DNA of 64,000 nt, from NCBI RefSeq assembly GCF_900143005.1, contig NZ_FRCS01000001.1, forward strand, positions 1,178,001 to 1,242,000, given 5' to 3'. Position 1 is the first letter of the stretch, and each line of letters starts with the position of its first letter. The DNA comes from Cryptosporangium aurantiacum. GTDB lineage: Bacteria > Actinomycetota > Actinomycetes > Mycobacteriales > Cryptosporangiaceae. The notes beneath the pieces were generated by a model. That model saw nothing but the letters and a program-made list of their open reading frames with translations. It had not been told where the DNA came from and did not search any database. Made by a program: the position numbers and the translations under genes. Below are positions 8,972-40,935 of the stretch, piece by piece.

Positions 8972-10372
8972 ATGTCCGACGCCTCCCGGCGGTGGGCGCT
9001 CCGTTTGTGCCTCGCCGCCGGTTTCACCACGTTGATCGACCAGTCGGTCCTGAACGTGGCGATCCCGTCGATCCGGTCCTCACTGGACGCCGGTCCGCAC
9101 GAAGTCCAGTGGATCCTGGCCGGCTATTCGTTCGCGTTCGGTCTCGCGCTGGTGCCCGGTGGGCGGCTCGGCGACGCGCACGGCCGCCGGGGGTACTTCC
9201 TGGCCGGGTTCGCGCTGTTCACGCTGACCAGCGTGGTCGCCGGTACCGCGCAGCACGGTTGGGTGGTCGCGGCCGCCCGGATCGTGCAGGGGCTGGGAGC
9301 CGGGATGGTCAACCCGCAGGTGCTCGGCCTGATCCAGGACGAGTTCCGGGGCGCCGAACGGGCCCGGGCGCTCGGCGCGTACGCGACGACCGGAGGCGTG
9401 GCCGCGACGATCGGGCCGGTAGTGGGCGGCGCGCTGATCGGCGTGGCCGGGCCGGACTGGGGCTGGCGGCTGATCGCGCTGATCAACGTGCCGTTCGGGG
9501 TGGCGACGTTGATCCTGGCCGCGCGGTATCTCCCGCGCCGGCTTCCCGTGCGGCGGCGGACGCCACTCGACGTGCCCGGCCTGATCCTGCTCGGCGCGCT
9601 GACGCTCTGCGTCCTGCTGCCGGTGACGCTGTCCGGCGGTGTGCCGGTGGCGGTGTGGGTGGCCGTCGGCGCGGCCCTGCTCGCGGGTCTCGTGACCTGG
9701 GAACGGTGGTATGCCCGGACCGGACGAGCCCCGGTGCTGCACCCGGCGCTGGTCCGCTCCCGGGCGTTCGTCTGCGGGAGCCTCGTCGCGATGTTCAACT
9801 TCGGGGCGGTGCTCGCGATGTCGCTGGTGATCGTGCTTCACCTGCAGGAGGCCGCCGGGGAGTCCCCGCTGGCCGCGGCGCTGACCACGCTCCCGAGCGC
9901 GGTCGCGTTCGGGCTCACGTCGGCGGTCAGCTGGCGCGCGCTCGCGCGCCTGGGGCCTCGGCTGCTGCGCTACTCGACCGCGCTCGGCGCCGCGAGCGCG
10001 CTGGCGACGCTGGCGTGCGCGGTCTGGGTCCCGGACCGGCACCTGTGGTTCGCGTTCGCGATCACCCAGCTCGCGTTCGGGATCAGCGGCGGGCTGACCG
10101 TCTCGCCCAACCAGGCGCTGACGCTGCGGCACGCTCCGGCCGAGGTCGCCGGCCTCGCGGCCGGGTTCCTCCAGGTCGTCCAGCGGATCTCGGCCGCCGT
10201 GAGCCTCGCGGTCGTGAGCGGGCTCGCGCTGGCGGCGCCGATCACCGGGTATCGCCACGCGACCGCCTCCGGCCTGGTGTTCTGCACGGTGCTGCTGGTG
10301 GGCTCACTGATCGCGGCGTTCGGCGTCCGAGTAGGACTCTCCCGAAGCGCTGCACATTCTGTGCCGTTATAG
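8972..10372 (+). CDS. MFS transporter, DHA2 (14-TM) drug exporter type
   Basis: A 466-residue membrane protein. The N-terminal LIDQSVLNVAIPSI is the D1 motif of DHA2 proton antiporters (L-D-x-T-v-v-N-v-A-l-P), and GGRLGDAHGRRGYF is motif A; ARIVQGLGAGMVNPQ and GVAATIGPVVGGALIG are motifs B and C. The start at ATG 8972 fits the membrane topology best. In-frame upstream starts reach back into the divergent LLM gene. The last codons and the stop lie inside a long hairpin that likely terminates transcription. Confidence 0.9.
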   Translation: MSDASRRWALRLCLAAGFTTLIDQSVLNVAIPSIRSSLDAGPHEVQWILAGYSFAFGLALVPGGRLGDAHGRRGYFLAGFALFTLTSVVAGTAQHGWVVAAARIVQGLGAGMVNPQVLGLIQDEFRGAERARALGAYATTGGVAATIGPVVGGALIGVAGPDWGWRLIALINVPFGVATLILAARYLPRRLPVRRRTPLDVPGLILLGALTLCVLLPVTLSGGVPVAVWVAVGAALLAGLVTWERWYARTGRAPVLHPALVRSRAFVCGSLVAMFNFGAVLAMSLVIVLHLQEAAGESPLAAALTTLPSAVAFGLTSAVSWRALARLGPRLLRYSTALGAASALATLACAVWVPDRHLWFAFAITQLAFGISGGLTVSPNQALTLRHAPAEVAGLAAGFLQVVQRISAAVSLAVVSGLALAAPITGYRHATASGLVFCTVLLVGSLIAAFGVRVGLSRSAAHSVPL

Positions 10373-10395
10373 GGGCACAGAATGCGCAGCGCTTC
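10344..10395. terminator. Very long convergent hairpin, stop codon in the loop
   Basis: Left arm 10344-10365 (GAAGCGCTGCACATTCTGTG and CC) pairs with right arm 10374-10395 over 22 bp with a single G-U-type mismatch. The loop is 8 bases and holds the TAG of the MFS gene. It separates the rightward MFS gene from the leftward LLM remnant, so it most likely works as a bidirectional terminator. No U-tract follows, as is usual in high-GC actinobacteria. Confidence 0.7.
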
Positions 10396-10780
10396 CCGCG
10401 TAGCGGTTCGGGGGGCGGTCGAGGCCGAGGTTCTCGGAACAGGCCGCGGCGCTGCGCGCCCGGCAGGTACTCGAAGACCACGTTGAAGCCGTCCGCGCCC
10501 CGCCGGGTGAACCACTCCTCGACGTGGCCGGCGACCCTCTCCGGGGTGCCGACGATCGTCCGGTCGTCGTCGGCGACCTTCTGCGCCAGCTGGCGGATCG
10601 TCAGCCCGGCGGCCCGGGCCTGCCGGTGCCGAGCCCGAGCTGCAACCGCCCACCGGTCAGCGCGTCGAGCACCGCGGCGTCCTCGGCCACCGCGGCGACG
10701 AAGAACTCCACGAGGTCGCGGTAGACCTCGGACGCGGCGCGTTCCGGGCCGTGCACATGAGTGAGGAAGCCGAGCTTCAC
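10396..10780 (-). pseudogene. Fused scar of two LLM monooxygenase genes
   Basis: Reading leftward from GTG 10780, KLGFLTHVHGPERAASEVYRDLVEFFVAAVA matches the start of a luciferase-like monooxygenase and then jumps to EDAAVLDALTGGRLQLGLGTG, which normally lies some 60 residues later. At about 10620 the frame shifts into RAAGLTIRQLAQKVADDDRTIVGTPERVAGHVEEWF and DGFNVVFEYLPG, the C-terminal part of an NtaA/DszA-type enzyme. After a further deletion and frameshift come RGLFR and ENLGLDRPPNRYAG, the family's terminal motif. Two different subfamilies are thus joined. The GTG still overlaps the upstream ATPase stop as GTGA. It is not functional as read. Confidence 0.8.
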
Positions 10781-11562
10781 AACACCTCCGAAGGCAGCTG
10801 CGGCACCGCGGCGAGCAGCGCCTGGGTGTACGGGTGCTGCGGCGCGGAAAGCACCTGGGAAGTCGGGCCGCGTTCCACGACGACGCCGTCCTTCATCACG
10901 AGCACGTCCGCGCAGAGCTGCTGCACGACGCCGATGTCGTGGGACACCAGCACGAGCGTGAGCCCGAACTCGTCGGCCAGCGTCCGGAGCAGCGCGAGCA
11001 CCGAGGACCGCACGACGACGTCCAGGGCGCTCAGCGGCTCGTCGCCGATCAGCACCTTCGGTCCAGGGGCGAGCGCACGGGCGATCGCGATCCGCTGCCG
11101 CTGGCCACCGGAGAACTCGTGCGGGTAGCGGCCCATGATCTCCGGGCCGAGCCCGACGGCGGTCAGCACCTCGGCGACGCGGGCCCGGACGTCGCCCGCG
11201 ACCCGTAGGCACTCCAGCGGCTCCGCCACGATCTGCCGCACGGTCATCCGCGGATCCAGCGACGCCCGCGGGTCCTGCAGAACGACCTGCACCTCGCGCC
11301 GGAACCACTCCTGGCGCCCCGGCGTCACCCGGACGTCCCGGAACCGCACCTCCCCGGCGTCCGGACGCTCCAGCCCGAGCAGCAGCCGGGTGAGCGTCGA
11401 CTTGCCGGAGCCGGACTCTCCGACGATGCCGAGGTGCCTGCCCTCGGCCAGTTCGAGGTCCACACCGCCCACGGCCCGCCGCCGCGCCGCCGACGAGAAC
11501 AGCGACCGCCGCGGCAGCCGGTACGACTTGTGCAGCGCGGACGCGGAGAGCAGCACGGTCAC
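10777..11562 (-). CDS. Oligopeptide-type ABC importer ATPase, DppF/OppF-like
   Basis: A 261-residue nucleotide-binding subunit with Walker A GESGSGKST (about residues 41-49), signature FSGGQRQRIAIARAL, Walker B KVLIGDEPLSALD and the switch histidine in LVLVSHDIGVV. The N-terminal YRLPRRSLFSSAARRRAVGGVDLEL resembles the OppF/DppF class. The start is taken at GTG 11562, where it overlaps the upstream ATPase stop as GTGA. The typical C-terminal Cys-rich oligopeptide/dipeptide extension is short or absent. It pairs with the ATPase at 11559 to drive the importer of SBP 14142. Confidence 0.9.
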   Translation of the reverse strand: MTVLLSASALHKSYRLPRRSLFSSAARRRAVGGVDLELAEGRHLGIVGESGSGKSTLTRLLLGLERPDAGEVRFRDVRVTPGRQEWFRREVQVVLQDPRASLDPRMTVRQIVAEPLECLRVAGDVRARVAEVLTAVGLGPEIMGRYPHEFSGGQRQRIAIARALAPGPKVLIGDEPLSALDVVVRSSVLALLRTLADEFGLTLVLVSHDIGVVQQLCADVLVMKDGVVVERGPTSQVLSAPQHPYTQALLAAVPQLPSEVL

Positions 11563-12356
11563 GGCGCCAGCACCTTCCCCGGCACCCAGGACGTGGCACG
11601 GGCCGCGGCGATCAGCGCGCGCGTTCCCTCGTGCTGCGGCGACTGCACGATGTCGGTCACCGTTCCCTCCTCCAGTACTCGGCCGTCGGCGAGTACCGCG
11701 ACCCGGCGGCAGACCTGGTGGACGACGGCCAGGTCGTGGCTGATGAACAGCAGCGCGGTGTCGTGGTCGTCGACGAGCCGGTCGAGCAGCCGCAGCACGC
11801 CGGCCTGCACGGTGACGTCCAGCGCGGTGGTCGGCTCGTCGGCCAGCAGCAGCGCGGGCCGGCACGCCAGCCCGATCGCCAGCCCCACCCGCTGGCGCTG
11901 ACCGCCGGACAGCTCGTGCGGGTAGGAGTGCACGAGCCGGTCCGGGTCGGGGAGCCCGACCTCGGCGGCCAGCTCGACCGCGGCCGCGGCTGCCGCCCGC
12001 CGGGACAACCCCGCGTGCAGCCGGAGCGGCTCGCCGATCTGCCGCCCGATCCGCATCAGCGGGTTGAGCGCGGTCTGCGGCTCCTGGAACACCATCGCGA
12101 CACGACGTCCGCGGATCCGGGACAGCGCGCGGTCGCCCAGCCCGATCAGCTCGGTCCCGTCGAGCCGCACCGACCCATTGACGACGGCTCCGTCCGGCAG
12201 TAACCCCAGGATCGCCAGCGCGGTCAGCGACTTCCCGGACCCGGACGCCCCGATCAGCCCGAGCCGGTCCCCCGAGTCCAGCGTGAGACTGACGTCGGAC
12301 ACCACCGGACGCCCACCGATCCGGACCGTCAGCCCCTCCACCTCGAGCAGGCTCAT
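11559..12356 (-). CDS. Oligopeptide-type ABC importer ATPase, DppD/OppD-like
   Basis: A 265-residue ATPase: Walker A GASGSGKSL near residue 36, Q-loop VFQEPQTALNPLMRIG (characteristic of the D subunit), signature LSGGQRQRVGLAIGLA, Walker B ALLLADEPTTALD, switch LLFISHDLAVV. ATG 12356 overlaps the stop of the permease gene as ATGA. Energises uptake together with the F-type partner downstream. Confidence 0.92.
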   Translation of the reverse strand: MSLLEVEGLTVRIGGRPVVSDVSLTLDSGDRLGLIGASGSGKSLTALAILGLLPDGAVVNGSVRLDGTELIGLGDRALSRIRGRRVAMVFQEPQTALNPLMRIGRQIGEPLRLHAGLSRRAAAAAAVELAAEVGLPDPDRLVHSYPHELSGGQRQRVGLAIGLACRPALLLADEPTTALDVTVQAGVLRLLDRLVDDHDTALLFISHDLAVVHQVCRRVAVLADGRVLEEGTVTDIVQSPQHEGTRALIAAARATSWVPGKVLAP

Positions 12357-13198
12357 CCGACGGTCCGATCCCGGCGCAGCTGCGGGTCGATCGCATCCCG
12401 TAGCCCGTCGCCGAGCAGGTTGAAGCCGAGCACGGTCAGCGCGATCACCAGTCCAGGCCAGACCACCAGCAGCGGCCGGACGGTCAGATACGGCTGCTGC
12501 TCGTGCAGCAACCGTCCCCAGGACGGCGTCGGCGGCGGCGTGCCGTACCCGAGGTAGGAGAGCGCGGCCTCGGCGAGCACCGCGATCGCCAGCGCCAGCG
12601 ACGCCTGGACGACGAGCGTCGGCGCGACGTTCGGCAGCACGTGCCGCCCGACGATCCGGCCGATGCCCGCGCCGGACGCCCGCGCGGCCAGCACGTAGTC
12701 CGCGGCCATCACCCGCATGATCTCGGCGCGGGTCACCCGGGCGACGATCACCGCGAGGCCGAGGCCCACCGCGGTCACGCCGGTCCACGTCGACCCGCCG
12801 AACACCGCGGCGAACACCATCGCGAGCAGCAGCACCGGAAACGCGATCAGGACGTCGAGCACGTGCGCCAGGGACTCCGAGATCCATCGCGGCGGCACCG
12901 CGGTCAGGATCGCCAGCGCGACGCCGAGCAGCACCGCGATCAACGACGCCAGCACCGCGACCAGCACGGTGATCCGGGAACCGGCGATCAGCTGGCTCAG
13001 GATGTCCTTGCCCGCGGTGTCGGTGCCGAGCCAGTGGTCACCGGAGAACGCCGGCACCCAGGACGCGCGCGGGTCGACGAGCGTCGGGTCGTACGGCGTC
13101 CAGAAGAGCGACAGCAACGCCGTGCCGAGCAGCACCCCGACCAGGACCGTTCCGACCAGGCCGCTCGGGCTGCGCAGCAGCGCCCGGACAACACTCAT
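12353..13198 (-). CDS. Oligopeptide-type ABC importer permease, DppC-like
   Basis: A 281-residue membrane protein with about six segments and the DppC hallmark HWLGTDTAGKDILSQLIAGSR near residue 54. The EAA-type coupling loop is YVLAARASGAGIGRIVGRHVLPN, and the C-terminus reads GFNLLGDGLRDAIDPQLRR, the family's conserved end. It is joined to the upstream permease and downstream ATPase by ATGA overlaps. Confidence 0.93.
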   Translation of the reverse strand: MSVVRALLRSPSGLVGTVLVGVLLGTALLSLFWTPYDPTLVDPRASWVPAFSGDHWLGTDTAGKDILSQLIAGSRITVLVAVLASLIAVLLGVALAILTAVPPRWISESLAHVLDVLIAFPVLLLAMVFAAVFGGSTWTGVTAVGLGLAVIVARVTRAEIMRVMAADYVLAARASGAGIGRIVGRHVLPNVAPTLVVQASLALAIAVLAEAALSYLGYGTPPPTPSWGRLLHEQQPYLTVRPLLVVWPGLVIALTVLGFNLLGDGLRDAIDPQLRRDRTVG

Positions 13199-14145
13199 GA
13201 GGCCCTCCGCAGGCGCGGATCGATGAGGCGGTGGGCGACGTCGATCGTGAAGCCGACGACGAGCACGGCCGCGCTGACGATCAGCACCTCGCTCTGCACC
13301 GCGACCAGGTCGCGGTTGCCGACGTCGCGGACCAGCAGCTGGCCCGCGCCCGGCAGGTTGAACACGGTCTCGACGACGATCGCGCCGACCAGCAGCGTCG
13401 CGATCTGCAGCCCGAGGACCGACACGACCGACAGCGCCGCGTTCCGGACGCCGTGCCGCAGCAATGCCCGGGTCCGGGTGAGGCCCTTCGCGCGCGCCGT
13501 ACGCAGCCAGTCCTGGTGCAGCACCTCGAGCGTCGCCGAGCGCACGTACCGCAGCAGCACCGCGCCCTCGGCGAGCGCGAGCGTCACCGCGGGCAACACC
13601 AGGCTGCGCACGGCCCGCGACGAATCGGACCAGCCGTCGATCGGGAACCCCTGCGCGGGCAGCCAGCGCAGGTGCACCGCGAACAGCACGGCCAGCACCA
13701 GGCCCAGCCACAGCGTCGGCACCGCGATCCCCAGCTGGCTCACCACCGAGATCACGGTGCCGGACCGCCGCCGGTGCAGGGCGGCGGCCAGAATCCCGCC
13801 GGGCACGGCCAGCACGATCGCGAGCACGATCGCACCGATCACCAGCGGGACCGTGACCGACAGCTTCTCGGTCAGCTCGGCGCCGATCGACGCGCCGGAG
13901 AGCGGTGACCGTCCGAAGTCGCCGGTCACGACCCCGCCGATCCAGTCGAAGTACTGGGTGACCAGCGGCCGGTCGGTGCCGAGCTGGTGGCGCAGGTTGG
14001 CCACCGCCTCCGGCGTCGCCTGCGTGCCGGCGATCACCTGTGCCATGTCGCCCGGGAGCAACCGCAGCAGCAGGAACACCAGCACGCTGGCGAGCACCAG
14101 CGACCCGAGCAGTAGCCCGAGCCGCCGGAGCACGAACGGCATCAT
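13195..14145 (-). CDS. Oligopeptide-type ABC importer permease, DppB-like
   Basis: A 316-residue membrane protein starting MMPFVLRRLGLLLGSLVLASVLVFLLLRLLPGD, the family N-terminal helix and LPGD motif. It has LGTDRPLVTQYFDWIGGVVTGDFGRS in the periplasmic-side loop and an EAA loop DWLRTARAKGLTRTRALLRHGVRN. It ends IDVAHRLIDPRLRR as DppB proteins do. It forms the translocation pore with the C subunit. ATG 14145 overlaps the SBP stop as ATGA. Confidence 0.93.
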   Translation of the reverse strand: MMPFVLRRLGLLLGSLVLASVLVFLLLRLLPGDMAQVIAGTQATPEAVANLRHQLGTDRPLVTQYFDWIGGVVTGDFGRSPLSGASIGAELTEKLSVTVPLVIGAIVLAIVLAVPGGILAAALHRRRSGTVISVVSQLGIAVPTLWLGLVLAVLFAVHLRWLPAQGFPIDGWSDSSRAVRSLVLPAVTLALAEGAVLLRYVRSATLEVLHQDWLRTARAKGLTRTRALLRHGVRNAALSVVSVLGLQIATLLVGAIVVETVFNLPGAGQLLVRDVGNRDLVAVQSEVLIVSAAVLVVGFTIDVAHRLIDPRLRRAS

Positions 14146-15647
14146 GAGGCGGTGACGCTCGCCAGGTTCAGTCGGGAGCTGGTCGAGTCCTTCGGGAAGC
14201 CCTCGACGCCCTTGCGCACCACGGTGTGGATCTGGCCGCCGGACAGGAAGTCGCCCGCCGCGTCCTCGGACACCTGCTTCGCGGCCTGCGCGAGCAGCTC
14301 GTCACGCTGGTCCTCGGACGGCGCGACCTGCGCGTCGGCGACCAGCTTCTGCACGGCCTTGCTGTCGTAGCGGAAGTAGTACTTCGGGTTGGCCCAGATG
14401 CCGATGTCGCGCGCTTCGGCGTGGTCGACGATCGAGAGCTGGTAGTTCGCCTCGGTGAAGACGGTGTCCAGCCAGGTCGCGAACGGCACCGACTTGATCT
14501 CGACGGTGATCCCGACCTGCTTGAGCTGCGACGTGACGTACTCGGCGTAGAGCGGCGGGTAGAAGTTCGCCACGGTCAGCGTCAGCTTCAGGTTCGAGAC
14601 GCCGGCCTCGGCGAGCAGTTTCTTGGCCGCGGCCGGGTCGTACTTGTCGATGCTGGTCAGGCTCTCGTCGTACCAGGGGTCGGTCGAAGCGACCGGACCA
14701 CCGATCCGAATGCCCTCGCCGTAGCTCGAGATCAGCCCGTCCTTGTCGATCGCCTGCCGGATCGCCCGGCGCACCCGGACGTCCTTCAGCGGGCCGTACG
14801 CGTTGTTGAAGCCGAGGACGATCTTGTCCGACGCGATGCCCTCCTGGACGGCGAAGTCCTGGTTGTTCTCGTACGGCGCGAGCAGCTTCGGGTCGAGCGC
14901 GGTGAGCACGTCGATGTCGCCGGCGAGCGTCGCGTTGTTCGCCGCGTTGTCGTCCGGGATGTAACGGAAGACGACCTTGGCGACCTTGGCTTCCTCGCCC
15001 CAGTACTCGTCGTGACGCAGGAAGGTGAGGCTCGCACCGCGCTGCCACTTGTCCAGCGTGAACGGCCCGGTGCCGTTCTCGCTGTCGGCCAGCCCGGTCG
15101 CGCCCTTCTTGTAGACGACGCCCGCGCGGTTGGTCAGCGCGTAGGTGAAGTTGCTGTCGCGCTGCTTGAGCGCGATCTTCACGGTCTTCTCGTCCGGCGC
15201 GGTGACCGAGGCGACCTGGGCGAAGTCGATCTTGTTCGGGTTGGCCGACTTCGGGCTGAGCACCTGCTCGTACGACCAGACGACGTCGGCGGCGGTGACC
15301 GGCGAGCCGTCGTGGAACGTCGCCTTCGGGTTGAGCGTGAACGTGTAGCTGAGCCCATCGGGCGCGGCCTCGTACTCGGAGGCGAGCGACGGCACGATCT
15401 TGTCCGAAGCGTCCCGGGTCAGCAGGCCCTGGTAGACGTTGTCGAGCAGCACCTGGTCGAGCGCCGCGCCCGCCACCGTCGTGAGGTCGAGGCTGGTCGG
15501 CTCCAGCTTCAGCCGCACGGTGACGGTCGCGTTGGTGTCCGCAGCCCCGGCGCTCGCGTCGCCGTCCTCGCTGCTGCAACTCGTCAGCGCGACGAGACCC
15601 GCCACTAACAGGGCCAGAAGGCCGGTCTTACGCACGAGGGTCCTCAT
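14142..15647 (-). CDS. Peptide/nickel-type ABC substrate-binding lipoprotein (SBP family 5)
   Basis: A 501-residue lipoprotein: basic N-terminus, hydrophobic core and lipobox LTSC with the acylated cysteine at residue 24. The family-5 pattern is clear: LEPTSLDLTTVAG, DGLSYTFTLNPKATFHDGSPVTAADVVWSYEQ, NGTGPFTLDKWQRG, and VRRAIRQAIDKDGLI. It captures the substrate outside the membrane and hands it to the permeases encoded next. It is only distantly similar to the other two family-5 binding proteins here, so a different ligand is likely. Its start overlaps the DUF427 gene by 20 bases. Confidence 0.92.
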   Translation of the reverse strand: MRTLVRKTGLLALLVAGLVALTSCSSEDGDASAGAADTNATVTVRLKLEPTSLDLTTVAGAALDQVLLDNVYQGLLTRDASDKIVPSLASEYEAAPDGLSYTFTLNPKATFHDGSPVTAADVVWSYEQVLSPKSANPNKIDFAQVASVTAPDEKTVKIALKQRDSNFTYALTNRAGVVYKKGATGLADSENGTGPFTLDKWQRGASLTFLRHDEYWGEEAKVAKVVFRYIPDDNAANNATLAGDIDVLTALDPKLLAPYENNQDFAVQEGIASDKIVLGFNNAYGPLKDVRVRRAIRQAIDKDGLISSYGEGIRIGGPVASTDPWYDESLTSIDKYDPAAAKKLLAEAGVSNLKLTLTVANFYPPLYAEYVTSQLKQVGITVEIKSVPFATWLDTVFTEANYQLSIVDHAEARDIGIWANPKYYFRYDSKAVQKLVADAQVAPSEDQRDELLAQAAKQVSEDAAGDFLSGGQIHTVVRKGVEGFPKDSTSSRLNLASVTAS

Positions 15648-16407
15648 CTCGAGAAAAGCGGCGGTTGAATTCGGTAACGGGTCTGTCCAGCGCGACGCCG
15701 TCGACCGTGATGTCGACGACCTCGTTGTAGAAGGCGACCAGGTCGGCGATCCGGCCTACGGCCGGAACCGGGTCGGGGTAGGTCCAGGCGACGTTCTCCG
15801 GCCCGCCGGGGAACGACCAGTACGACGCCGTGCCCTTGTACGGACAGCCGGTCTGCAGGTCGGACGGCTGCAACGTCGTGAAGTCGACGTCCTCGCGCGG
15901 CAGGTAGTAGCGGATCGGCAGACGCGTCTCGAACACCAGCACCGGCCGGTGCGACTCCGCGACCCGGACGCCGTTGATCGACACCTGGACGTGGCGCGAG
16001 CTGGGCAGCGGATCGACGCGTTTGTACGGGTCACGCGGGTGGACGAAGATCTCCTCGTCCTCCTCGTACCAGTGCTCGATGCCGGGCTCGGTCCGGCCGA
16101 ACCAGTCGAACGCGACGTGGTCGGCCAGCTCCGGGACGTCGTAGGTCCAGGCCACGGACGCCAGCCGCCGCCCGTCGACGAGGAGATCGAACCGACCGTC
16201 GGAACCTGGAGAAAGCAGGTCGGTCCGTACGTCCGACCGCGGGAACACGTACCCGGGCACCGCACGCCCCGGCTCCCAGACCAGCACCGGACGCGCACTG
16301 TCCACGACGGTCACGGCGCCGACCGTGCCGCGCACCCGGCGCTCGGACGGCTCGTACGTGAACTCGTCGGCGGGCACCGGGTGGCGGCGAGAGGCCCGGG
16401 GACTCAT
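15628..16407 (-). CDS. DUF427 protein with two DUF427 domains
   Basis: A 259-residue soluble protein with two copies of the DUF427 fold. The first copy is around residues 20-110 (VVDSARPVLVWEPGRAVPGYVFPRSDV); the second is about residues 135-240 (VAESHRPVLVFETRLPIRYYLPREDV, then TGCPYKGTASYWSF). In each, the repeated pattern of a beta strand, E-x-G/L and Y-x-P/F-R-x-D-V is visible. The biochemical function of the family is not established. It is tightly coupled (ATGA) to the dioxygenase gene upstream and overlaps the SBP gene downstream, which suggests a role with the imported substrate. Confidence 0.85.
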   Translation of the reverse strand: MSPRASRRHPVPADEFTYEPSERRVRGTVGAVTVVDSARPVLVWEPGRAVPGYVFPRSDVRTDLLSPGSDGRFDLLVDGRRLASVAWTYDVPELADHVAFDWFGRTEPGIEHWYEEDEEIFVHPRDPYKRVDPLPSSRHVQVSINGVRVAESHRPVLVFETRLPIRYYLPREDVDFTTLQPSDLQTGCPYKGTASYWSFPGGPENVAWTYPDPVPAVGRIADLVAFYNEVVDITVDGVALDRPVTEFNRRFSRDEDPRA

Positions 16408-17432: not shown

Positions 17433-17443
17433 GGCTCGCTCCT

Positions 17444-20618: not shown

Positions 20619-20631
20619 GAGGCGCCCGCCG

Positions 20632-23151: not shown

Positions 23152-23192
23152 GGCGGTGCTCCTCAGGGACAGGCGGGGGTAAGCGAACTATG

Positions 23193-23240
23193 TCTATCAG
23201 AGTAGTAGGGATCTAGTAAATTCCCTACCTACCTGATAGA
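23193..23240. promoter_or_regulatory. 48-bp nested palindrome between divergent transporter operons
   Basis: Two concentric inverted repeats share one centre. The outer arms TCTATCAG (23193-23200) and CTGATAGA (23233-23240) are perfect over 8 bp. The inner arms GTAGGGA (23205-23211) and TCCCTAC (23222-23228) are perfect over 7 bp, with 10 bases between. It is the only AT-richer stretch in the 131-bp gap between the two divergent SBP genes, so it is a strong candidate for the operator controlling both operons. I know of no regulator with this exact site. Confidence 0.65.
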
Positions 23241-23245
23241 CGTAC

Positions 23246-23260
23246 TGCGGTATTACCGCA
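23246..23260. promoter_or_regulatory. 15-bp perfect palindrome in the leader of the rightward operon
   Basis: TGCGGTA, T, TACCGCA: perfect 7-bp arms around one base, 22 bases before ATG 23283. It could be a second operator half-way between the nested palindrome and the start codon. Confidence 0.45.
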
Positions 23261-23282
23261 CACCGAAAGGCAGAACCCCTCG

Positions 23283-25064
23283 ATGAGCTCCACCACCCGC
23301 CGCAGATCCCTCGCGACGGCGGCCGCGGCCGTCGCCCTCGCGCTCGGGCTGACCGCGTGCAGCGGAAACCAGCCGGTCAGCGACGACGCCGGTGACGGCA
23401 AGGCGGGGTACGGCGGGACGCTCCGCATCGCCTCGCTCGAGTCCGACCTGGACGCGCTCGACCCGCTCACCGGCTACAGCATCGACTCGTGGCAGATCCT
23501 GCGCGGGATCACTCGCCAGCTGGTCACGTTCCCCGGCAGCACCGAGAGCCTCGGCGCCGACAACAAGCTGATCGGGGACCTGGCGAAGTCCTGGGACGTC
23601 AGCCCGGACGGCAAGACCTACACGTTCCACCTGCGCGACGACATCACGTACTCCGGGTCGGCGACCAGGGAGATCGTCGCGAAGGACTTCGTCTACGCGA
23701 TCAAGCGGTTCTGCGACCCGAACAAGCAGGTCGCGGCCATCAACTACTTCAACCTGATCTTCTCCGGCTTCCCGCAGTACTGCGCGGAGTTCGCGAAGGT
23801 GAAGCCGGGCGACCCGGCACGCTCCAAGCAGTTCATCGACACCCACGAGATCTCCGGGGTGTCCGCGCCCGACGACAAGACGCTCGTGCTGAAGTCCGAC
23901 ACCAAGAACTACGACTTCCTCAGCATCCTCGCGATGAACTTCGTGACGCCGCTGCCCGAGGAGGTGGCCTCGAAGTACATCGGCGACTCGGTGGAGTTCC
24001 GCAAGAACTACCCGTCCAGCGGCCCGTACCAGGTCGACTCGTACGAGCAGGGCAAGGAACTCGTCCTCTCGAAGGTCAAGGGCTACAACGCCGCGGGCGA
24101 CCCGGCCCGCAAGGCCTACGTGGACAAGATCGTCGTCGACTTCACCACGAACACCGAGGACGCGGTCGTCCAGAAGATCCAATCCGGTGAGGCGGACCTC
24201 TCGCTCTACCTGACCGCACCTCCGATCGCGACGATCCAGAGCTACACGGCGAGCAACAGCGCGCACCTGCACTCGTCCGACGGGGCCGGCGCCAAGTTCA
24301 TCGTCCTGAACACCGCCCCGTACAACAACTCGGCGAACGCGAAGGCGCTGCGCAACCTCAAGGTGCGGCAGGCGCTGACGTACGCGGTCAACCGCGCGAA
24401 CCTGGTCCAGGGCCAGGGCGGCAAGGTCGTCGCGAAGCCGCTGCACCAGATCCTGATCTCGACGATCCTCGGCCACGAGGACATCGACCCGTACGCCACG
24501 GAGGGCGACAAGGGTGACGTCGCGAAGGCGAAGGCGCTGCTCACCGAGGCCGGCTACCCGAACGGCCTGACGCTCAACGCGATCTACCGCGGCGTCGCCA
24601 GCGAGGAGTCGAAGGCCACCACGCTCAAGGCCGACCTGGCCAAGGCAGGCATCAACCTGAACCTGATCAAGGTGCCCGCGGCGGACTTCCGCGCCTACTA
24701 CGCCAAGAAGGACGCGGTCTGGGACCTCAACCTCTCCGGCTCGTTCTCGCCGGACTGGCAGGGCGACAGCACCCGGATGCTGCTCGGCGGCTGGCTCAAC
24801 TCGGACGGTTCGCCGCAGGGCGTCGGCAACGTGCAGGCGGTCGCGTACGACAACAAGGAGCTGAACAAGCTGGCGGCGGAGGCGTTCGTCTCGGACGACC
24901 CGGGTCCGATCTGGGCGAAGGCCGACGCGCTGGTCTCGAAGGACCTGCCGTGGATCCCGCTGTTCGAGCTGCGCAAGGTCGTCGTCACCTCGGAGCGGCT
25001 GCGCCAGTTCACCTGGTCGAACGTCCCGGTGAACCCGGACATCACCAACGTCGCGGTGCAGTAG
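23283..25064 (+). CDS. ABC substrate-binding lipoprotein, SBP family 5, first gene of the rightward operon
   Basis: A 593-residue lipoprotein with Arg-rich start, hydrophobic core and lipobox LTAC (cysteine at residue 26). Family-5 pattern: GGTLRIASLESDLDALDPLTGYS, DGKTYTFHLRDDITYSGSATREIVAKDFVYAIKRF, SSGPYQVDSYEQG and VRQALTYAVNRANL. Two cysteines in the binding domain (RFCDPNK and QYCAEF) may form a disulfide. It is considerably longer than the other two binding proteins, so its ligand may be larger. Upstream of the start is a weak GAAAGG site. Transporter subunits follow in the order ATPase, DppC, DppB. Confidence 0.93.
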   Translation: MSSTTRRRSLATAAAAVALALGLTACSGNQPVSDDAGDGKAGYGGTLRIASLESDLDALDPLTGYSIDSWQILRGITRQLVTFPGSTESLGADNKLIGDLAKSWDVSPDGKTYTFHLRDDITYSGSATREIVAKDFVYAIKRFCDPNKQVAAINYFNLIFSGFPQYCAEFAKVKPGDPARSKQFIDTHEISGVSAPDDKTLVLKSDTKNYDFLSILAMNFVTPLPEEVASKYIGDSVEFRKNYPSSGPYQVDSYEQGKELVLSKVKGYNAAGDPARKAYVDKIVVDFTTNTEDAVVQKIQSGEADLSLYLTAPPIATIQSYTASNSAHLHSSDGAGAKFIVLNTAPYNNSANAKALRNLKVRQALTYAVNRANLVQGQGGKVVAKPLHQILISTILGHEDIDPYATEGDKGDVAKAKALLTEAGYPNGLTLNAIYRGVASEESKATTLKADLAKAGINLNLIKVPAADFRAYYAKKDAVWDLNLSGSFSPDWQGDSTRMLLGGWLNSDGSPQGVGNVQAVAYDNKELNKLAAEAFVSDDPGPIWAKADALVSKDLPWIPLFELRKVVVTSERLRQFTWSNVPVNPDITNVAVQ

Positions 25065-25066
25065 CC

Positions 25067-26617
25067 GTGGCGACGTTCGAGGTCGAAAACTTGCGGGTCC
25101 GCTTCGGTGACACCGAAGCGGTCCGCGGGGTGTCCTTCGCGGTCGACGCCGGGCAGACGCTGGCGATCGTCGGCGAGTCCGGCTCCGGGAAGAGCGTGTC
25201 GCTGCTGGCCGCGACCGGGCTGCTCGGCGGAGCCGGTGAGGTCACCGGCTCCGCCCGCCTGGACGGGACCGAGCTGGTCGGCGCGTCCCCCGGGGCGTTG
25301 CGGCGGCTGCGCGGCAAGGACATCGGGTTCGTGTTCCAGGACCCGCTGGCCAACCTGCACCCGCTCAAGACGATCGGGAAGCAGGTCGGCGAGGCGATCA
25401 CCGCGCACGAGCGGGTCCGCCGGACCGTGCTGCGGCGCCGGGTCGTCGAGCTGCTCGACGAGGTGGGCATCCGGGAACCGCACCGGCGGGTGGACGACTA
25501 CCCGGTGCACTTCTCCGGCGGGATGCGGCAGCGGGCGATGATCGCGGCGGCGATCGCGCTCAACCCGAAGCTGCTGATCGCCGACGAGGCGACCACCGCG
25601 CTCGACGTCACCGTGCAGGCTTCGATCCTCGAACTGCTCCAGCGGTTGCAGCGCGAGCACGGCTCGGCGCTGGTGTTCGTCAGCCACGACCTCGGCGTCG
25701 TCTCCGACATCGCGGACGACATCGTGGTGCTGCGAAACGGCGAAGTGGTGGAAGCCGGAGCCGCGGACGAGATCTACGCGGCTCCGGCCCACCCCTACAC
25801 CGTCGAGCTGCTGAGCGCGACCCGGCACAAGGCCGTGACGCCGAAAAAAGAGGACCGGCCGGTCCTGCTCGAGGCCCGCAACCTGACCCAGCGGTATACC
25901 TCCCGTAAGCGGTCGGTGACGGCCGTGGACGACGTCAGTTTTGACGTCGGTGCGGGGGAGATCCTCGGGGTCGTGGGCGAGTCCGGTTCCGGCAAGTCGA
26001 CGATCGGGCGCATCGTCAGTGGGTTGCTGAAGCCCACGGCCGGCACGGTGGCTCTCGGCGGCGAGCCCTACGCCGCGGGCGTGCCCGCCGCCCTCCGGCC
26101 GCGGATCCAAGTCGTCTTCCAGGACCCGTACGCGAGCCTCAACCCGCGGCGGACGATCCGGGCGATCCTCGCCGAGCCGTACGTGATCCACCAGCGGCCC
26201 ACGCCCGACCTCGGCGAGGCGGTCCGCCGGGTGGACCTGCCGGTCGACGTGCTCGACCGATACCCCGCCCAGCTCTCCGGCGGGCAGCGGCAGCGGGTGG
26301 CGATCGCCCGCGCGATCGCGCTGGAACCGGACCTGGTCGTGGCCGACGAACCGGTGTCGTCGCTGGACGTCACCACGCAGGCGCAGATCCTCGCGCTGCT
26401 GCGGCGGCTCCGCGACGAGCTGGACGTCTCGTTCCTGTTCATCTCGCACGACCTGGGCGTCGTCGCCGACCTCTGCGACCGCGTGCTGGTGCTGAGCGAG
26501 GGCCGGGTCGTGGAGGACGGCATCACGTCGGAGGTGTTCGCGGCACCGAGCGATCCGTACACCCAACGGCTGCTCGACGCGATCCCGGGCCGGAAGCGAG
26601 GGCTGTTGCATGTCTGA
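25067..26617 (+). CDS. Fused oligopeptide ABC importer ATPase (DppD-DppF in one chain)
   Basis: A 516-residue tandem ATPase beginning at GTG 25067, two bases after the SBP stop. First domain: GESGSGKSVSL near residue 38, FSGGMRQRAMIAAAIA, LLIADEATTALD. Second domain: GESGSGKSTIGR near residue 310, LSGGQRQRVAIARAIA, LVVADEPVSSLD. Switch histidines (VFVSHDLGVV, LFISHDLGVV) are intact. It lacks the cysteine-rich peptide-specific extensions seen in the other fused ATPase, so the two fused proteins are not recent duplicates. Confidence 0.93.
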   Translation: MATFEVENLRVRFGDTEAVRGVSFAVDAGQTLAIVGESGSGKSVSLLAATGLLGGAGEVTGSARLDGTELVGASPGALRRLRGKDIGFVFQDPLANLHPLKTIGKQVGEAITAHERVRRTVLRRRVVELLDEVGIREPHRRVDDYPVHFSGGMRQRAMIAAAIALNPKLLIADEATTALDVTVQASILELLQRLQREHGSALVFVSHDLGVVSDIADDIVVLRNGEVVEAGAADEIYAAPAHPYTVELLSATRHKAVTPKKEDRPVLLEARNLTQRYTSRKRSVTAVDDVSFDVGAGEILGVVGESGSGKSTIGRIVSGLLKPTAGTVALGGEPYAAGVPAALRPRIQVVFQDPYASLNPRRTIRAILAEPYVIHQRPTPDLGEAVRRVDLPVDVLDRYPAQLSGGQRQRVAIARAIALEPDLVVADEPVSSLDVTTQAQILALLRRLRDELDVSFLFISHDLGVVADLCDRVLVLSEGRVVEDGITSEVFAAPSDPYTQRLLDAIPGRKRGLLHV

Positions 26618-27536
26618 CGTACTCGTTGCGGCGCCGACCGCACCCGCCGCCCCGTCCCGGGCGCTCGGGGCCCGGATCCTGCGGGAGCGGTCGGCCCGGT
26701 TCGGGCTGATCACGATCGGCGTTGTCGTCCTGCTGGCCGCGGCGGCTCCGGTGTTCGCCGCGATCACCGGCCACGGGCCGGCCGAGCAGTTTCCGTCCGA
26801 GGCGCTGAGCGAGGCAGGCGTCCCGGTCGGGCCGAACGGTGACTTCTGGCTGGGCGCCGACGGCAACGGGCGCGACGTCCTGGTGCGGACGCTCTACGGC
26901 GCCCGGATCTCGCTGCTGGTCGGGATCCCGGCCACCACCGTCGCCGCCGTGCTCGGCACCGCGATCGGGGTGCTCTCCGGGTACTTCGGGGGTGCGACCG
27001 ACCGGATCCTCTCCCAGGTGACCGACGTCGTGCTGTCGTTCCCGTTCGTGGTCACCGCGCTCAGCCTGGTGGCCCTCAACCTCGGTGCCGACGGCACGTC
27101 CCGGCTCAGCCCGGTCCTGCTGGTGATCATCGTCATCGCGGTGTTCGCCTGGACGTACTTCGCCCGGCTCACCCGCGGGCTCACGCTCGAGCTGCGTCAT
27201 CGCCCGTTCGTCGAGGCCGCGATCACGCTCGGCGCCGGTCACGGCCGGATCATCACCCGGGAGATCCTGCCCTCGATCGCTCCCGCGGTGATCGTCTACT
27301 GGGCGGTGCAACTGCCCACGAACATCGTCGCGGAGGCGACGCTGTCGTTCCTCGGCATCGGCGTGCAGGCCCCGACGCCGAGCTGGGGCAACATGATCGC
27401 CGACGCCCAGAGCACGTCGCTCTACCAGGTGCAGCCCTGGTTCCTCGCGGTGCCGGCGATCGGTCTGTTCCTCACCGTGCTGGGTTTCAACGCGCTCGCC
27501 GGTGGTGTCCGCAACGTCCTGGACCCGGCCCGATGA
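26610..27536 (+). CDS. Oligopeptide-type ABC importer permease, DppC-like
   Basis: A 308-residue membrane protein with FWLGADGNGRDVLVRTLYGAR, the DppC hallmark, and EAA loop FVEAAITLGAGHGRIITREILPS. It ends GFNALAGGVRNVLDPAR. Its ATG lies 8 bases inside the ATPase gene. Here the gene order is C before B, the reverse of the leftward operon. Confidence 0.93.
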   Translation: MSDVLVAAPTAPAAPSRALGARILRERSARFGLITIGVVVLLAAAAPVFAAITGHGPAEQFPSEALSEAGVPVGPNGDFWLGADGNGRDVLVRTLYGARISLLVGIPATTVAAVLGTAIGVLSGYFGGATDRILSQVTDVVLSFPFVVTALSLVALNLGADGTSRLSPVLLVIIVIAVFAWTYFARLTRGLTLELRHRPFVEAAITLGAGHGRIITREILPSIAPAVIVYWAVQLPTNIVAEATLSFLGIGVQAPTPSWGNMIADAQSTSLYQVQPWFLAVPAIGLFLTVLGFNALAGGVRNVLDPAR

Positions 27537-28555
27537 TTCACCCAAAAAGGCAGCACTGGCTGTTCCGCCGCGCCGGGCGGGCGCTCGTCACGATCTTCGC
27601 CGTGCTGATCGCGACGTTCGCGCTGACCCGCGTCGCCTACCAGAACCCGGCGGCCTCGCTCGCGGCCCGCAACGACAACCAGCAGGTCATCGAGGGGATC
27701 ACCCGGGCGCTGCGGCTCGACGAACCCTGGTACTCGCAGCTCTGGCACTACCTGTTCCGCGGACCGGACATCCAGGGCGCCCCGATGGGCCTGTTCCACT
27801 TCCCGCCCGCGCTCGGCTTCTCGTTCCGGCGGCAGACGCCGGTCACCGAGCTGATCCTGTCGAAAGTCTCGGCGACCGCTTCGCTGGCGCTCGGCGCGCT
27901 GGTCATCTGGATCGCGCTGTCGATCCTGTTCGGCGTGCTCGCGGCGCGGCGGCCGGGGTCGCTCACCGACCGGGTGCTCGGCGGCGTCTCGTACGTCGGG
28001 CTGTCGGTCCCGACGTTCCTCACCGGGATCCTGCTGTCGTACTTCCTGTTCTTCAAGCTCTCGACGTACGGCGTGCGGTGGTTCCCGAGCAGCGGATACG
28101 TGCCGCTCACCGAGAACCCGCTGGAGTGGGCACGGCACCTGCTGCTGCCCTGGGCGACGATCGCGCTGGCCGAGATCGGTATCTTCCAACGGGTGGTGCG
28201 GGCCGGGATGCTCGACGTCCTGTCGGCGGACTACATCCGCACCGCGCGGGCGAAGGGCGTCAGCGAGCGGCGGGTGCACTTCGACCACGCGCTGTCGGCG
28301 GCGCTCAACCCGCTGATCACGCTCGGTGGCCTGGAGCTCGCGGTGGTGTTCGGTGGTGCGATCGTGACCGAACGGATCTTCGGTATCGACGGCGTCGGGC
28401 GGCTGGCCATCGACTCGGCGCTGACCGGCGACTATCCGGTGGTGATCGGCACGACGTTGTTCGCCTCGGTCGTGTTCATCCTCACGAACTTCGCGGTCGA
28501 CGTCGTCACCAGGCTGCGGGACCCCAACCTCCGTGCGAAAGAGTCGACGCTATGA
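27533..28555 (+). CDS. Oligopeptide-type ABC importer permease, DppB-like
   Basis: A 340-residue membrane protein with an N-terminal helix (FRRAGRALVTIFAVLIATFALTRVAYQNPA) and an extended extracytoplasmic loop, LWHYLFRGPDIQGAPMGLFHFPPALGFSF. The usual LPGD motif is replaced by NPAAS. The EAA loop is YIRTARAKGVSERRVHFDHALSA. It ends VVTRLRDPNLRAKEST. ATG overlaps the DppC stop as ATGA. Confidence 0.92.
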   Translation: MIHPKRQHWLFRRAGRALVTIFAVLIATFALTRVAYQNPAASLAARNDNQQVIEGITRALRLDEPWYSQLWHYLFRGPDIQGAPMGLFHFPPALGFSFRRQTPVTELILSKVSATASLALGALVIWIALSILFGVLAARRPGSLTDRVLGGVSYVGLSVPTFLTGILLSYFLFFKLSTYGVRWFPSSGYVPLTENPLEWARHLLLPWATIALAEIGIFQRVVRAGMLDVLSADYIRTARAKGVSERRVHFDHALSAALNPLITLGGLELAVVFGGAIVTERIFGIDGVGRLAIDSALTGDYPVVIGTTLFASVVFILTNFAVDVVTRLRDPNLRAKESTL

Positions 28556-29733
28556 CACTGGACATCCGCATCCTGCGCCATCCGGAGGAGTCCAGCCGCG
28601 CCTTCCGGACGTTTCTCAAGGCGATGGTCGGGCTGCCGCCCGCGCTGCTGGACGCCGACCCGGCGGAGTTCCTCGAACCGGGGCGGTACCTCGGTGCGCT
28701 GGTCGACGGCGTGATCGTCGGGGGCGCCGACTCCTACACCGGCTGGCTCGTCGTCCCCGGCGGCCGGCGGCTGCCGCACGCGGCCGTGACGCACATCGGC
28801 GTCCTCCCCACCCACACCCGGCGGGGGATCGTCACCGCACTGGTCGAGCAGCAACTGGCCGACCTCGCGGCGCGCGGCGAGCCGGTGGCGACGCTGCGCG
28901 CGTCCGAGGCCGTGATCTACGAGCGGTTCGGGTACGGCGTCGCGAGCACGTCCGCGGAGTACCGGATCGCCCGCCGCCGGGCCGTGCTGCGGGATTCGGT
29001 CCCGGACAGCGGCCTGGTGCGGCTGGTCGAGGTCGCCGATGCGGGCAAGCTGCTGCCGGAGATCTACGCCGCGGCGTCCTGGGCGGGTGCGGTGGCGCGC
29101 GCCGACCAGTGGTGGACCTCGCACCGCCCGGGGCCGGGCGCTCAGCTGGCCGTCCACGGTACGGAGGGGGCCGAGGACGGCTATCTCGTCTACCGTCCGC
29201 TGAACACCGCCGAGTGGTGGAGCAGCACCGAGCGCACGATCGTCGTCGAGGACTTCGTCGCACACACGCCGGAGGCCTACGCCGGGCTGCTCCACCACCT
29301 GCTGCGGGTCGACCTGGTCGACACGATCGTGCTCGGCGGGCGCCCGGTCGACGACCCGCTGCCGACGCTGTTCCGCGACCGCCGCGCGGTGACGGTCAGC
29401 GGCCACCGCGACGAGACGTGGCTGCGCCTGGTCGACGTCGGCACCGCGCTCGCCGCCCGCACGTACGCGGGGGACGCCGCGCTGACGATCGAGGTCACCG
29501 ACGGCGTCCTCCCGGCCAACACCGGCCGCTACCGGCTCGACGGCACCCGCACCGACGACGCCGCCGACCTGAGCGTGGACGTCGCCGGGCTGGCCGCGGT
29601 CTACCTCGGCGGCACCCGCTGGTGGCAGCTCGCCCGCGCCGGCCGCGTCACCGAATCCACGCCGGGTGCGCTCGCCACCGCCGACGCCGCGTTCGGTACG
29701 GCGGCCGCCCCATACAGCGGCACGATCTTCTAG
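28552..29733 (+). CDS. Eis-like GNAT N-acetyltransferase
   Basis: A 393-residue tridomain acetyltransferase of the Eis family, with two GNAT-fold domains and a C-terminal SCP2-like domain. The acetyl-CoA loop is VTHIGVLPTHTRRGIVTAL around residues 79-97. IYERFGYG places a tyrosine at 123, equivalent to the catalytic Tyr of mycobacterial Eis, and the protein ends in phenylalanine, whose carboxylate acts in catalysis in Eis (established for that enzyme). Both hallmarks are present, so it is probably active. It overlaps the permease stop as ATGA and thus belongs to the importer operon, which suggests acetylation of an imported amine (inference). Its stop overlaps the convergent GntR gene's stop. 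Confidence 0.88.
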   Translation: MTLDIRILRHPEESSRAFRTFLKAMVGLPPALLDADPAEFLEPGRYLGALVDGVIVGGADSYTGWLVVPGGRRLPHAAVTHIGVLPTHTRRGIVTALVEQQLADLAARGEPVATLRASEAVIYERFGYGVASTSAEYRIARRRAVLRDSVPDSGLVRLVEVADAGKLLPEIYAAASWAGAVARADQWWTSHRPGPGAQLAVHGTEGAEDGYLVYRPLNTAEWWSSTERTIVVEDFVAHTPEAYAGLLHHLLRVDLVDTIVLGGRPVDDPLPTLFRDRRAVTVSGHRDETWLRLVDVGTALAARTYAGDAALTIEVTDGVLPANTGRYRLDGTRTDDAADLSVDVAGLAAVYLGGTRWWQLARAGRVTESTPGALATADAAFGTAAAPYSGTIF

Positions 29734-30455: not shown

Positions 30456-30512
30456 ACTCTCCCCGGGACGAAACAAACACTCGGTAGCCTAGCGAGTCGT
30501 GCACTCGTTCAG

Positions 30513-30555
30513 TTGTTCAATCACTGATCGAGTCCGTATGCTGCCGAGAGCATAC
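30513..30555 (+). promoter_or_regulatory. Promoter and overlapping inverted repeat of the nucleoside operon
   Basis: TTGTTC at 30513-30518 and TATGCT at 30537-30542 are separated by 18 bases and form a plausible sigma-70-type promoter. The -10 box lies inside a perfect inverted repeat, GTATGCT (30536-30542), six bases, AGCATAC (30549-30555), so a repressor bound there would block transcription. The divergent GntR gene is the obvious candidate regulator. A second small repeat, CGAGT-CGTGC-ACTCG, lies at 30493-30507. Confidence 0.5.
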
Positions 30556-30583
30556 CCCACACAGCTGGTAGGAGAAGTCTGGA

Positions 30584-37314: not shown

Positions 37315-37323
37315 AGGCCGAGA

Positions 37324-37893: not shown

Positions 37894-37972
37894 GGAGGTG
37901 CTCCTGTTCGGTAGATCGGGGATGCGTCCATTGCATCTCCTGCTGCTCCGGTAGGGAAAGAGGGTCGAGTCG

Positions 37973-37988
37973 CGCACTTTGAAGTGCG
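37973..37988. promoter_or_regulatory. Palindrome between FMN reductase and HxlR genes, likely HxlR operator
   Basis: CGCACTT, TG, AAGTGCG: a perfect 16-bp palindrome in the 115-bp divergent gap, 21 bases before the HxlR start. Position and symmetry suit binding by a dimeric HxlR protein controlling both genes. Confidence 0.55.
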
Positions 37989-40925: not shown

Positions 40926-40935
40926 CGCGCGCCGC

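Follow-up and report, generated by a model that had tools for sequence, protein, structure and literature searches.

Three family-5 importers at one divergent region of Cryptosporangium aurantiacum: a modular locus with a putative role in organosulfur acquisition

Why would a bacterium place three complete importers of the same family around a single promoter region, and what do these importers take up? The question is raised by a stretch of the genome of C. aurantiacum (64,000 nucleotides; contig NZ_FRCS01000001.1, positions 1,178,001 to 1,242,000), hereafter referred to as the window, in which three ABC importers of family 5 (Opp/Dpp/Nik), designated systems A, B, and C, occupy 17.8 kb on both sides of a 131-bp divergent region (23152-23282). 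On balance, we favor the idea that this is a sulfur-responsive locus for the acquisition of organosulfur compounds, built from separately inherited modules. The sulfur part of this idea is based on two facing promoter boxes unique in the genome, on related boxes at sulfur genes, on sulfur-type neighbors, and on the company kept by system C. An initial annotation of the same DNA had proposed a dedicated uptake-and-processing system rather than a general peptide importer; our data agree with it, in that A and C share the box pair, the enzymes are conserved together with A, and C recurs with luciferase-like monooxygenase (LLM), SfnB-like, and GNAT genes. The family of related ligands that it also envisaged is putative. 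The sulfur context is an addition to that proposal.

Organization of the locus and of its control region

Twelve intact genes run leftward and five rightward from the divergent region (Table 1). The leftward series begins with the substrate-binding protein (SBP) of system A and continues with DppB_A, DppC_A, a D-F fused ATPase of 618 residues, a hydrolase-like protein of 152 residues, a 2-oxoglutarate (2OG)-Fe(II) oxygenase, and a two-domain DUF427 protein, after which system B follows (SBP_B, DppB_B, DppC_B, OppD_B, and OppF_B). The rightward series comprises SBP_C, a D-F fusion of 518 residues, DppC_C, DppB_C, and an Eis-like GNAT acetyltransferase. Each system possesses one SBP_bac_5 protein, two BPD_transp_1 permeases (one DppB-like and one DppC-like), and two ABC ATPase domains, that is, the composition of a family-5 importer. 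The three oligopeptide-type importers of the initial annotation, as well as its three ATPase architectures (separate D and F in B, two different fusions in A and C), were recovered. It described a leftward run of 12 genes joined almost wholly by 4-base overlaps; of the 11 junctions between the 12 intact genes, such overlaps were found at seven, and the others are a 20-base overlap (SBP_B with the DUF427 gene), two gaps (11 and 13 bases), and one junction of 0 bases. The rightward junctions measure -4, -8, -4, and -4.

The whole genome (9.58 Mb) contains 15 SBP_bac_5 matches, three of which lie here within 11 kb, which is beyond chance. The three binding proteins share 23-31% identity with each other, so that they are not recent duplicates, and a recent local duplication was ruled out. 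None of the three reaches the NCBIfam equivalog cut-offs for the dipeptide, nickel, or glutathione subfamilies; the best models are NikA-type for SBP_A (165.7 bits) and SBP_B (137.4 bits) and DppA for SBP_C (97.0 bits), and their PDB relatives are peptide, nickel, and heme binders.

The divergent region embeds two facing 23-mers, TCCCTACTACTCTGATAGACATA (23211 down to 23189) and TCCCTACCTACCTGATAGACGTA (23222-23244), which form an inverted repeat with arms of 28 nucleotides (75% complementary) spanning 56 bases. In the whole genome, the pattern occurs exactly at these two places only and with three mismatches at four more, against 0 matches in the reversed control; one of the three-mismatch places, beside a GroEL-like gene, was inspected and appears accidental. 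Upstream of SBP_A in relatives, a CCTAC-N5-TAG box is present in 9 out of 17 regions, with TTGACA upstream in nine, and the counterpart in genome G001 (see below) is TCCCTACCTGTTTGGTAGACATA. Since CCTAC and TAG are separated by 5 bases in the relatives but by 8 in this genus, we consider these boxes related but not identical. A box pattern derived from Streptosporangiaceae was discarded, having no match in this genome, and a position matrix trained on ten sites of the relatives gave modest scores for the window sites, which were not taken as proof. The looser pattern CCTAC-N4-8-TAG[AT] occurs five times at four places in the window, against a mean of 0.275 in 40 Markov shuffles, a comparison that is optimistic because the pattern was written after some sites had been seen. 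The fourth place (46788, CCTACCGGCAAAGTAGA) lies between a DUF1684 gene and a phytase-like esterase gene, with no sulfur link seen. Control by a riboswitch or by a sigma-70 promoter was dropped, as neither the Rfam scan of the window nor the sigma-70 consensus scan of 22500-30600 gave a match.

Table 1. Features of the locus and of its surroundings (positions within the window).
Positions	Strand	Feature	Evidence
6624-7898	-	NtaA/DmoA-family flavin monooxygenase (LLM)	TIGR03860 355.5 bits (cut-off 279.7)
7895-8923	-	Second, shorter LLM protein	TIGR03860 132.9 bits (under cut-off 279.7)
10394-10780	-	Fragments of LLM genes, different frames	Weak TIGR04027 match (10622-10780); TIGR03860 match (10446-10604)
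10777-11562	-	OppF-like ATPase, system B	ABC_tran + oligo_HPY
11559-12356	-	OppD-like ATPase, system B	ABC_tran
12353-13198	-	DppC-like permease, system B	BPD_transp_1
13195-14145	-	DppB-like permease, system B	BPD_transp_1 + BPD_transp_1_N
14142-15647	-	SBP_B, family-5 binding protein	SBP_bac_5 278.8 bits
15628-16407	-	Two-domain DUF427 protein, invariant CPYKG	PF04248, two stretches; C188 in 24/24
16404-17432	-	IPNS-type 2OG-Fe(II) oxygenase	PF03171 + PF14226
17444-17902	-	Shortened alpha/beta-hydrolase-like protein without nucleophile serine, 152 aa	Gly at nucleophile position; no Pfam match for this copy
17899-19755	-	D-F fused ATPase, system A, 618 aa	Two ABC_tran + two oligo_HPY stretches
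19752-20618	-	DppC-like permease, system A	BPD_transp_1
20632-21585	-	DppB-like permease, system A	BPD_transp_1 + BPD_transp_1_N
21586-23151	-	SBP_A, family-5 binding protein	SBP_bac_5 266.2 bits
23189-23211	-	Promoter box facing system A	Exact pattern match, one of two in genome
23222-23244	+	Promoter box facing system C	Other exact match; inverted repeat with first box
23283-25064	+	SBP_C, family-5 binding protein	SBP_bac_5 212.7 bits; 62-65% identity on five plasmids
25061-26617	+	D-F fused ATPase, system C, 518 aa	Two ABC_tran stretches
26610-27536	+	DppC-like permease, system C	BPD_transp_1
27533-28555	+	DppB-like permease, system C	BPD_transp_1 + BPD_transp_1_N
28552-29733	+	Eis-like GNAT acetyltransferase	NF002367 306.3 bits (cut-off 259); Acetyltransf_9, Acetyltransf_17, SCP2_2
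39097-41517	-	CMD-CMD-SfnB run, neighboring	SfnB 440.5 bits (cut-off 430.9); TIGR01926 on other two
41544-41559	-	Related box before CMD-CMD-SfnB	ACCTACTGACTTAGTA

Different histories of the three importers

The 2OG gene was searched for in 101 genomes, which comprise our own, the remaining three of the genus, and a set of more distant genomes. A close relative was retrieved only from genome G001 (88% identity), and homologs at 34-37% from two further genomes. In G001, the genes for SBP_A, DppB_A, DppC_A, the fusion, the hydrolase, the 2OG enzyme, and DUF427 show an identical order (74-88% identity), and B and C are not present at that site; outside our own genome, the best matches within the four-genome genus are 40% for SBP_B and 28-30% for SBP_C. 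Furthermore, scanning the 2OG alignment against genome contigs yielded 29 loci, 24 of which have 10 kb of upstream flank. SBP_A, DppB_A, and DppC_A (at least 50% identity) occur together in 16 of these 24, accompanied by the hydrolase (at least 40%) in 15 and by DUF427 (at least 44%) in 14. No locus out of 29 carries SBP_B or SBP_C at 45% identity or more. Among the 29 are loci of Sphaerisporangium, Planotetraspora, Microbispora, Nonomuraea, Herbidospora, Acrocarpospora, Frankia, Dactylosporangium, Actinoplanes, a Streptomyces, and metagenome-assembled genomes (MAGs); the cassette spans several families. On plasmids, no 2OG match was found at E 1e-30, and all SBP_A matches are below 60% identity.

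The initial annotation had regarded the three importers as one unit, a view that their separation in close relatives would contradict; G001, which has A and its enzymes with neither B nor C at that site, shows such a separation. Together with the 29 cassette loci, it rules out a single ancient three-importer unit. As far as sequence comparison goes, system A, the hydrolase-like protein, the 2OG enzyme, and DUF427 form a conserved cassette, and the locus was probably assembled from separately inherited modules.

Regarding the cassette enzymes, the residues H204, D206, and H262 of the 2OG protein are present in 31 of 31 sequences, and R272 and S274 in 30 of 31; we take them to be the HxD...H iron triad and the RxS motif for 2-oxoglutarate, and the catalytic residues are intact, judging from the alignment. 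Sequence and fold alike group the protein with IPNS, thymine hydroxylase, and the plant 2OG dioxygenases, a broad class; the fold search, run on a model with a predicted local distance difference test (pLDDT) score of 63.8, returned this generic class without any hint about the substrate. Catalytic alpha/beta-hydrolases carry a GxSxG nucleophile elbow. In the hydrolase-like protein, Gly stands where the nucleophile is expected in 22 of 22 sequences, which indicates a conserved pseudo-enzyme, and the copy considered here is internally shortened, 19 of the 22 sequences compared measuring 212-358 residues. The CPYKG motif of DUF427 is invariant in 24 of 24 sequences, and the model of the protein (pLDDT 78) resembles 3djm, the structure of a DUF427 protein without an assigned function. 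A kinship with MsrB found no support in the fold search, in which only 3djm falls below E 0.001, with Mis18/yippee chains above it and no MsrB among the 50 matches listed; a link of DUF427 to the beta-tent fold has been reported (PMC4287342).

In the stretches examined, SBP_B relatives lie in complete importers (seven of eight stretches, the eighth having been chosen for its Rrf2 gene), with no clear sulfur context around them. In two of the stretches, alpha/beta-hydrolases whose N terminus resembles that of the cassette pseudo-hydrolase lie upstream of the B-type importer (L072, 7872-8825; L073, 7518-8480), and that of L072 retains GHSLGG, as judged by eye.

System C has a different distribution. 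A search of the phylum (395 other genomes) reported no relative at E <1e-80; it scored three candidates per genome at most, for which reason the absences of both B and C from the phylum are to be considered soft. SBP_C occurs at 62-65% identity on five plasmids (from Sinorhizobium RAC02, R. rhizogenes K84, Pantoea At-9b, Rhodococcus rhodochrous, and Paracoccus aminophilus). All five plasmid loci harbor the fusion and the permeases of C (52-70% identity), as well as an Eis-like GNAT (33-46%), LLM-type genes, and an SfnB-like gene; the three SfnB-like proteins scored (246-273 bits) stay under the equivalog cut-off (430.9). Moreover, K84 and R. rhodochrous possess a complete second SBP5 importer, and there the two importers are divergent as in this window; in Pantoea the second SBP is truncated by the edge of the stretch, RAC02 has an SBP-like gene at the edge, and none is in view in Paracoccus. 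Judged by these comparisons, importer C and the Eis-like GNAT constitute a separate module. A further 766 plasmid records contain SBP_C matches at lower identity (<60%), 707 of them from Klebsiella; one of the 766 was examined.

Sulfur genes beside the modules and at related boxes

In G001, an SfnB gene (478.2 bits) is divergent from SBP_A. In Herbidospora yilanensis (L035), the run adjoining the cassette includes an SsuE-like FMN reductase, an SBP5 importer, a rhodanese, an Rrf2 regulator (CymR model 86.2 bits, under cut-off), an acyl-CoA-dehydrogenase-like gene (SfnB model 91.7 bits only), and an NtaA/DmoA monooxygenase (464.5 bits, above cut-off). In an Acidimicrobiales MAG (L053), a rhodanese, the hydrolase, the 2OG enzyme, and a CymR-like Rrf2 are consecutive. 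LLM genes also occur in L040, L042, and L043, and a rhodanese in L045 and L056; overall, seven of the 29 cassette loci carry an NtaA-type LLM (>70% of its length), a rhodanese, or an Rrf2 gene. In Rhizobium NZLR1, the order is NtaA-type LLM, DUF427 (42%), SBP_A (38%), DppB, and DppC; here DUF427 accompanies the A importer, a flavin monooxygenase taking the place of the 2OG enzyme. The Rrf2 protein of our own genome is 50% identical to that of Herbidospora, and its neighbors resemble, by eye, an SsuABC-type ABC set.

In the window itself, genes for C-S monooxygenases or SfnB-type enzymes lie near the two operons, none being intact within them. Intact LLM genes are present in the Herbidospora locus and on the plasmids with module C. 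The LLM pair of Table 1, at least 1.9 kb past the end of the left operon, may belong to the system. The 10394-10780 region, at the left end of the stretch singled out by the initial annotation, consists of pieces of LLM genes and not of an intact gene: 10446-10604 matches the C-terminal part of NtaA/DmoA (TIGR03860, 43.4 bits), and 10622-10780, in a different frame, gives weak LLM family matches (best TIGR04027, 26.8 bits). A further LLM monooxygenase (54030-55160) is nearest to the CE1758 family, under its cut-off.

The CMD-CMD-SfnB run, preceded by a related box, is likely to be in the same regulon. A second pattern was built from this site and from that of the Herbidospora operon (FMN reductase, LLM, rhodanese, and Rrf2) adjoining the cassette, which a related box also precedes; it was used with up to two mismatches and a reversed control to scan two genomes, our own and that of Nonomuraea jabiensis. 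The five matches in our own genome are the training site, a site between a nitrite/sulfite-reductase-type gene and cysC (apsK 201.2 bits, above cut-off; a cysD-like frame, recognized by eye, lies behind cysC), a site before a TetR/MFS pair, and two others that were not read. N. jabiensis gave seven matches, its control a single one. The seven are at the cassette promoter, at a site 3.4 kb from it, one before an SsuD-like gene (238.6 bits, under the equivalog cut-off), one at the start of metX (490.9 bits, above cut-off) on the opposite strand, one without sulfur genes in view, and two unread. Related boxes at cysC, SfnB, SsuD-like, and metX genes may represent a site shared with assimilatory sulfur genes, but their spacing differs and the controls are not clean.

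Other genes surround the locus. An M20 amidohydrolase and an FMN reductase (36010-38383) form a leftward pair, divergent from an HxlR-type regulator, and a 70% homolog of the M20 protein lies immediately upstream of SBP_A in Dactylosporangium vinaceum (L039). A GntR/UTRA regulator (29730-30476) overlaps the GNAT gene by four bases and lies to the left of a nucleoside-type ABC importer (30584-35041), which comprises, by eye, a BMP-type lipoprotein (weak NF047927), an ATPase, and two permeases. Siderophore-type importer genes (Peripla_BP_2, FecCD permease, and ATPase) occupy 41999-45967.

Competing explanations and comparison with known systems

We can depict the following scenario for a sulfur-responsive locus. 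Under a shortage of preferred sulfur, the boxes (23189-23244) would be vacated by a regulator, probably a repressor of the Rrf2/CymR type, and both divergent operons would then be expressed. The candidate regulator is suggested by the Rrf2 genes adjoining the cassette in Herbidospora and in the Acidimicrobiales MAG, together with the CymR-like protein proposed as sulfur regulator in Rhodococcus (PMC8557817). Importers A, B, and C would take up small organosulfur solutes; the likeliest are those about as large as an amino acid or a dipeptide, for example cysteine S-conjugates. The carbon-sulfur bond of the A substrate may be attacked by the 2OG-Fe(II) enzyme with DUF427 and the non-catalytic hydrolase partner, and that of the C substrate by flavin enzymes of the NtaA and SfnB types, the GNAT carrying out N-acetylation; the released sulfur would enter cysteine synthesis.

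A narrower and quite tentative possibility is that the seven-gene cassette (SBP_A-DppB-DppC-DppDF-ABH-2OG-DUF427) is an undescribed desulfurization system, in which the 2OG enzyme cleaves the C-S bond, DUF427 handles the sulfur or carbonyl product, and the dead hydrolase acts as partner. In this view, the LLM-DUF427-SBP_A order in Rhizobium would suggest that the 2OG enzyme takes over the C-S cleavage performed elsewhere by flavin monooxygenases. If true, this would be the first role for DUF427. No description of the cassette was found among the literature titles and abstract openings listed, a coverage that leaves out subscription journals. Most soil sulfur is organic (PMC4267179). Many importers and C-S cleaving enzymes that might reach it go under names as general as "peptide transporter" or "oxidoreductase"; the locus would link a class of such importers, an uncharacterized 2OG oxygenase family, and DUF427 to sulfur nutrition, and the short box could be used to map the sulfur regulon in Streptosporangiaceae-type actinomycetes.

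Several observations weigh against a sulfur role. The LLM genes at the left operon end are broken; for SBP_A and SBP_B, the nearest models describe binders of nickel and glutathione, with scores far under cut-off in every case. No such box was seen in 8 of the 17 SBP_A upstream regions (Frankia, Dactylosporangium, Actinoplanes, and others), and CCTAC-N4-8-TAG[AT] has no match in six plasmid stretches with module C. The five matches of the second pattern in our own genome barely exceed the three of its reversed control, and the nitrite/sulfite-reductase-type gene beside cysC scores under all its cut-offs. No box was seen upstream of the own-genome Rrf2 operon, so that its link to the box is not established. 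Finally, LLM, rhodanese, and Rrf2 markers were not seen in 22 of the 29 cassette loci, within the stretches examined.

These points leave room for general di/oligopeptide, nickel/metallophore, or glutathione importers clustered by chance, with enzymes that process peptides. All three systems do belong to family 5, and the best models (NikA-type, DppA) and PDB relatives (peptide, nickel, and heme binders) would fit; nevertheless, all model scores are far under the equivalog cut-offs, no peptidase was found among the operon genes scanned, and box and module context indicate sulfur. This explanation appears unlikely. Chance might also have brought together three functionally unrelated importers, as the presence of A alone in G001, the want of close relatives of B and C in the genus, the cassette loci devoid of both, and the low identity among the binding proteins could suggest. 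Against this stand the single box type shared by A and C in an inverted 56-base arrangement, the 20-base overlap of SBP_B with DUF427, and, in other genomes, the position of C-type importers next to a second SBP5 importer, with a divergent arrangement in two; such an adjacency appears very improbable.

Another alternative is that the cluster serves to degrade or to make one particular natural product, of opine-like or beta-lactam-like type, in which case the IPNS-type oxygenase would be a tailoring enzyme; this seems scarcely more probable than mere adjacency. It would agree with the IPNS/thymine-hydroxylase class of the 2OG enzyme and with clavulanic acid OppA2 as the second PDB match of SBP_C (93.4 bits). 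It would also agree with a Mesorhizobium WSM1497 plasmid (L097, 3051-9446), where the neighbors of an SBP_A-like gene (36%) are genes for a 2OG oxygenase, for a ring-hydroxylating dioxygenase, and for a protein of the trimethylamine methyltransferase family. However, no synthetase-type or other biosynthetic gene was found among the genes scanned between 10.8 and 29.7 kb, and the cassette occurs across several families. Organosulfur acquisition thus remains our favored reading.

Compared with known Opp/Dpp/Nik importers, the three systems share the family composition (SBP_bac_5, two BPD_transp_1 permeases, and D and F ATPases) but reach no curated substrate model. The 2OG protein shares fold class and metal/2OG residues with IPNS and thymine 7-hydroxylase, at about 20% identity in fold alignments. 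In salvage operons of the Bacillus type, a GNAT, an LLM, and an M20 deacylase stand together with an importer; these genes exist in the window, but the importer class is different and they are not in one operon, since the GNAT ends operon C and the LLM pair and the M20 gene belong to other runs. For Bacillus cysteine S-conjugate salvage, the LLM flavoenzymes CmoO/CmoJ and YxeK are reported to cleave N-acetylated cysteine conjugates (PMC10863075), a chemistry that fits the GNAT beside importer C.

In Gordonia terrae C-6, sulfate-repressed operons with ABC importer runs and flavin monooxygenases rise when sulfate is replaced: on benzothiophene as compared with sulfate, eight genes in two ABC runs, partly annotated as peptide transporters, increased 10-37-fold in reverse-transcription quantitative PCR (RT-qPCR) and 37-78-fold in RNA-seq, and the gene numbers of one run adjoin that of an FMNH2-dependent monooxygenase (PMC3868597). 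The comparison is an analogy drawn from annotation, and the table of that study lists no 2OG/DUF427/pseudo-hydrolase cassette. Other counterparts are loci on the plasmids pGD02.2.1 of R. rhodochrous (L091/L095) and pAtK84c of R. rhizogenes K84 (L089). The 2OG, DUF427, and box elements were not found there, and the LLM and SfnB-like genes lie inside the unit, whereas here the LLM pair is 1.9 kb past the left operon and SfnB 9.4 kb past the GNAT. Both plasmids nonetheless resemble our locus in carrying a module C that is 59-70% identical across four importer proteins, a GNAT (46% and 36% identity, respectively), and a divergent second SBP5 importer together with LLM and SfnB-like genes.

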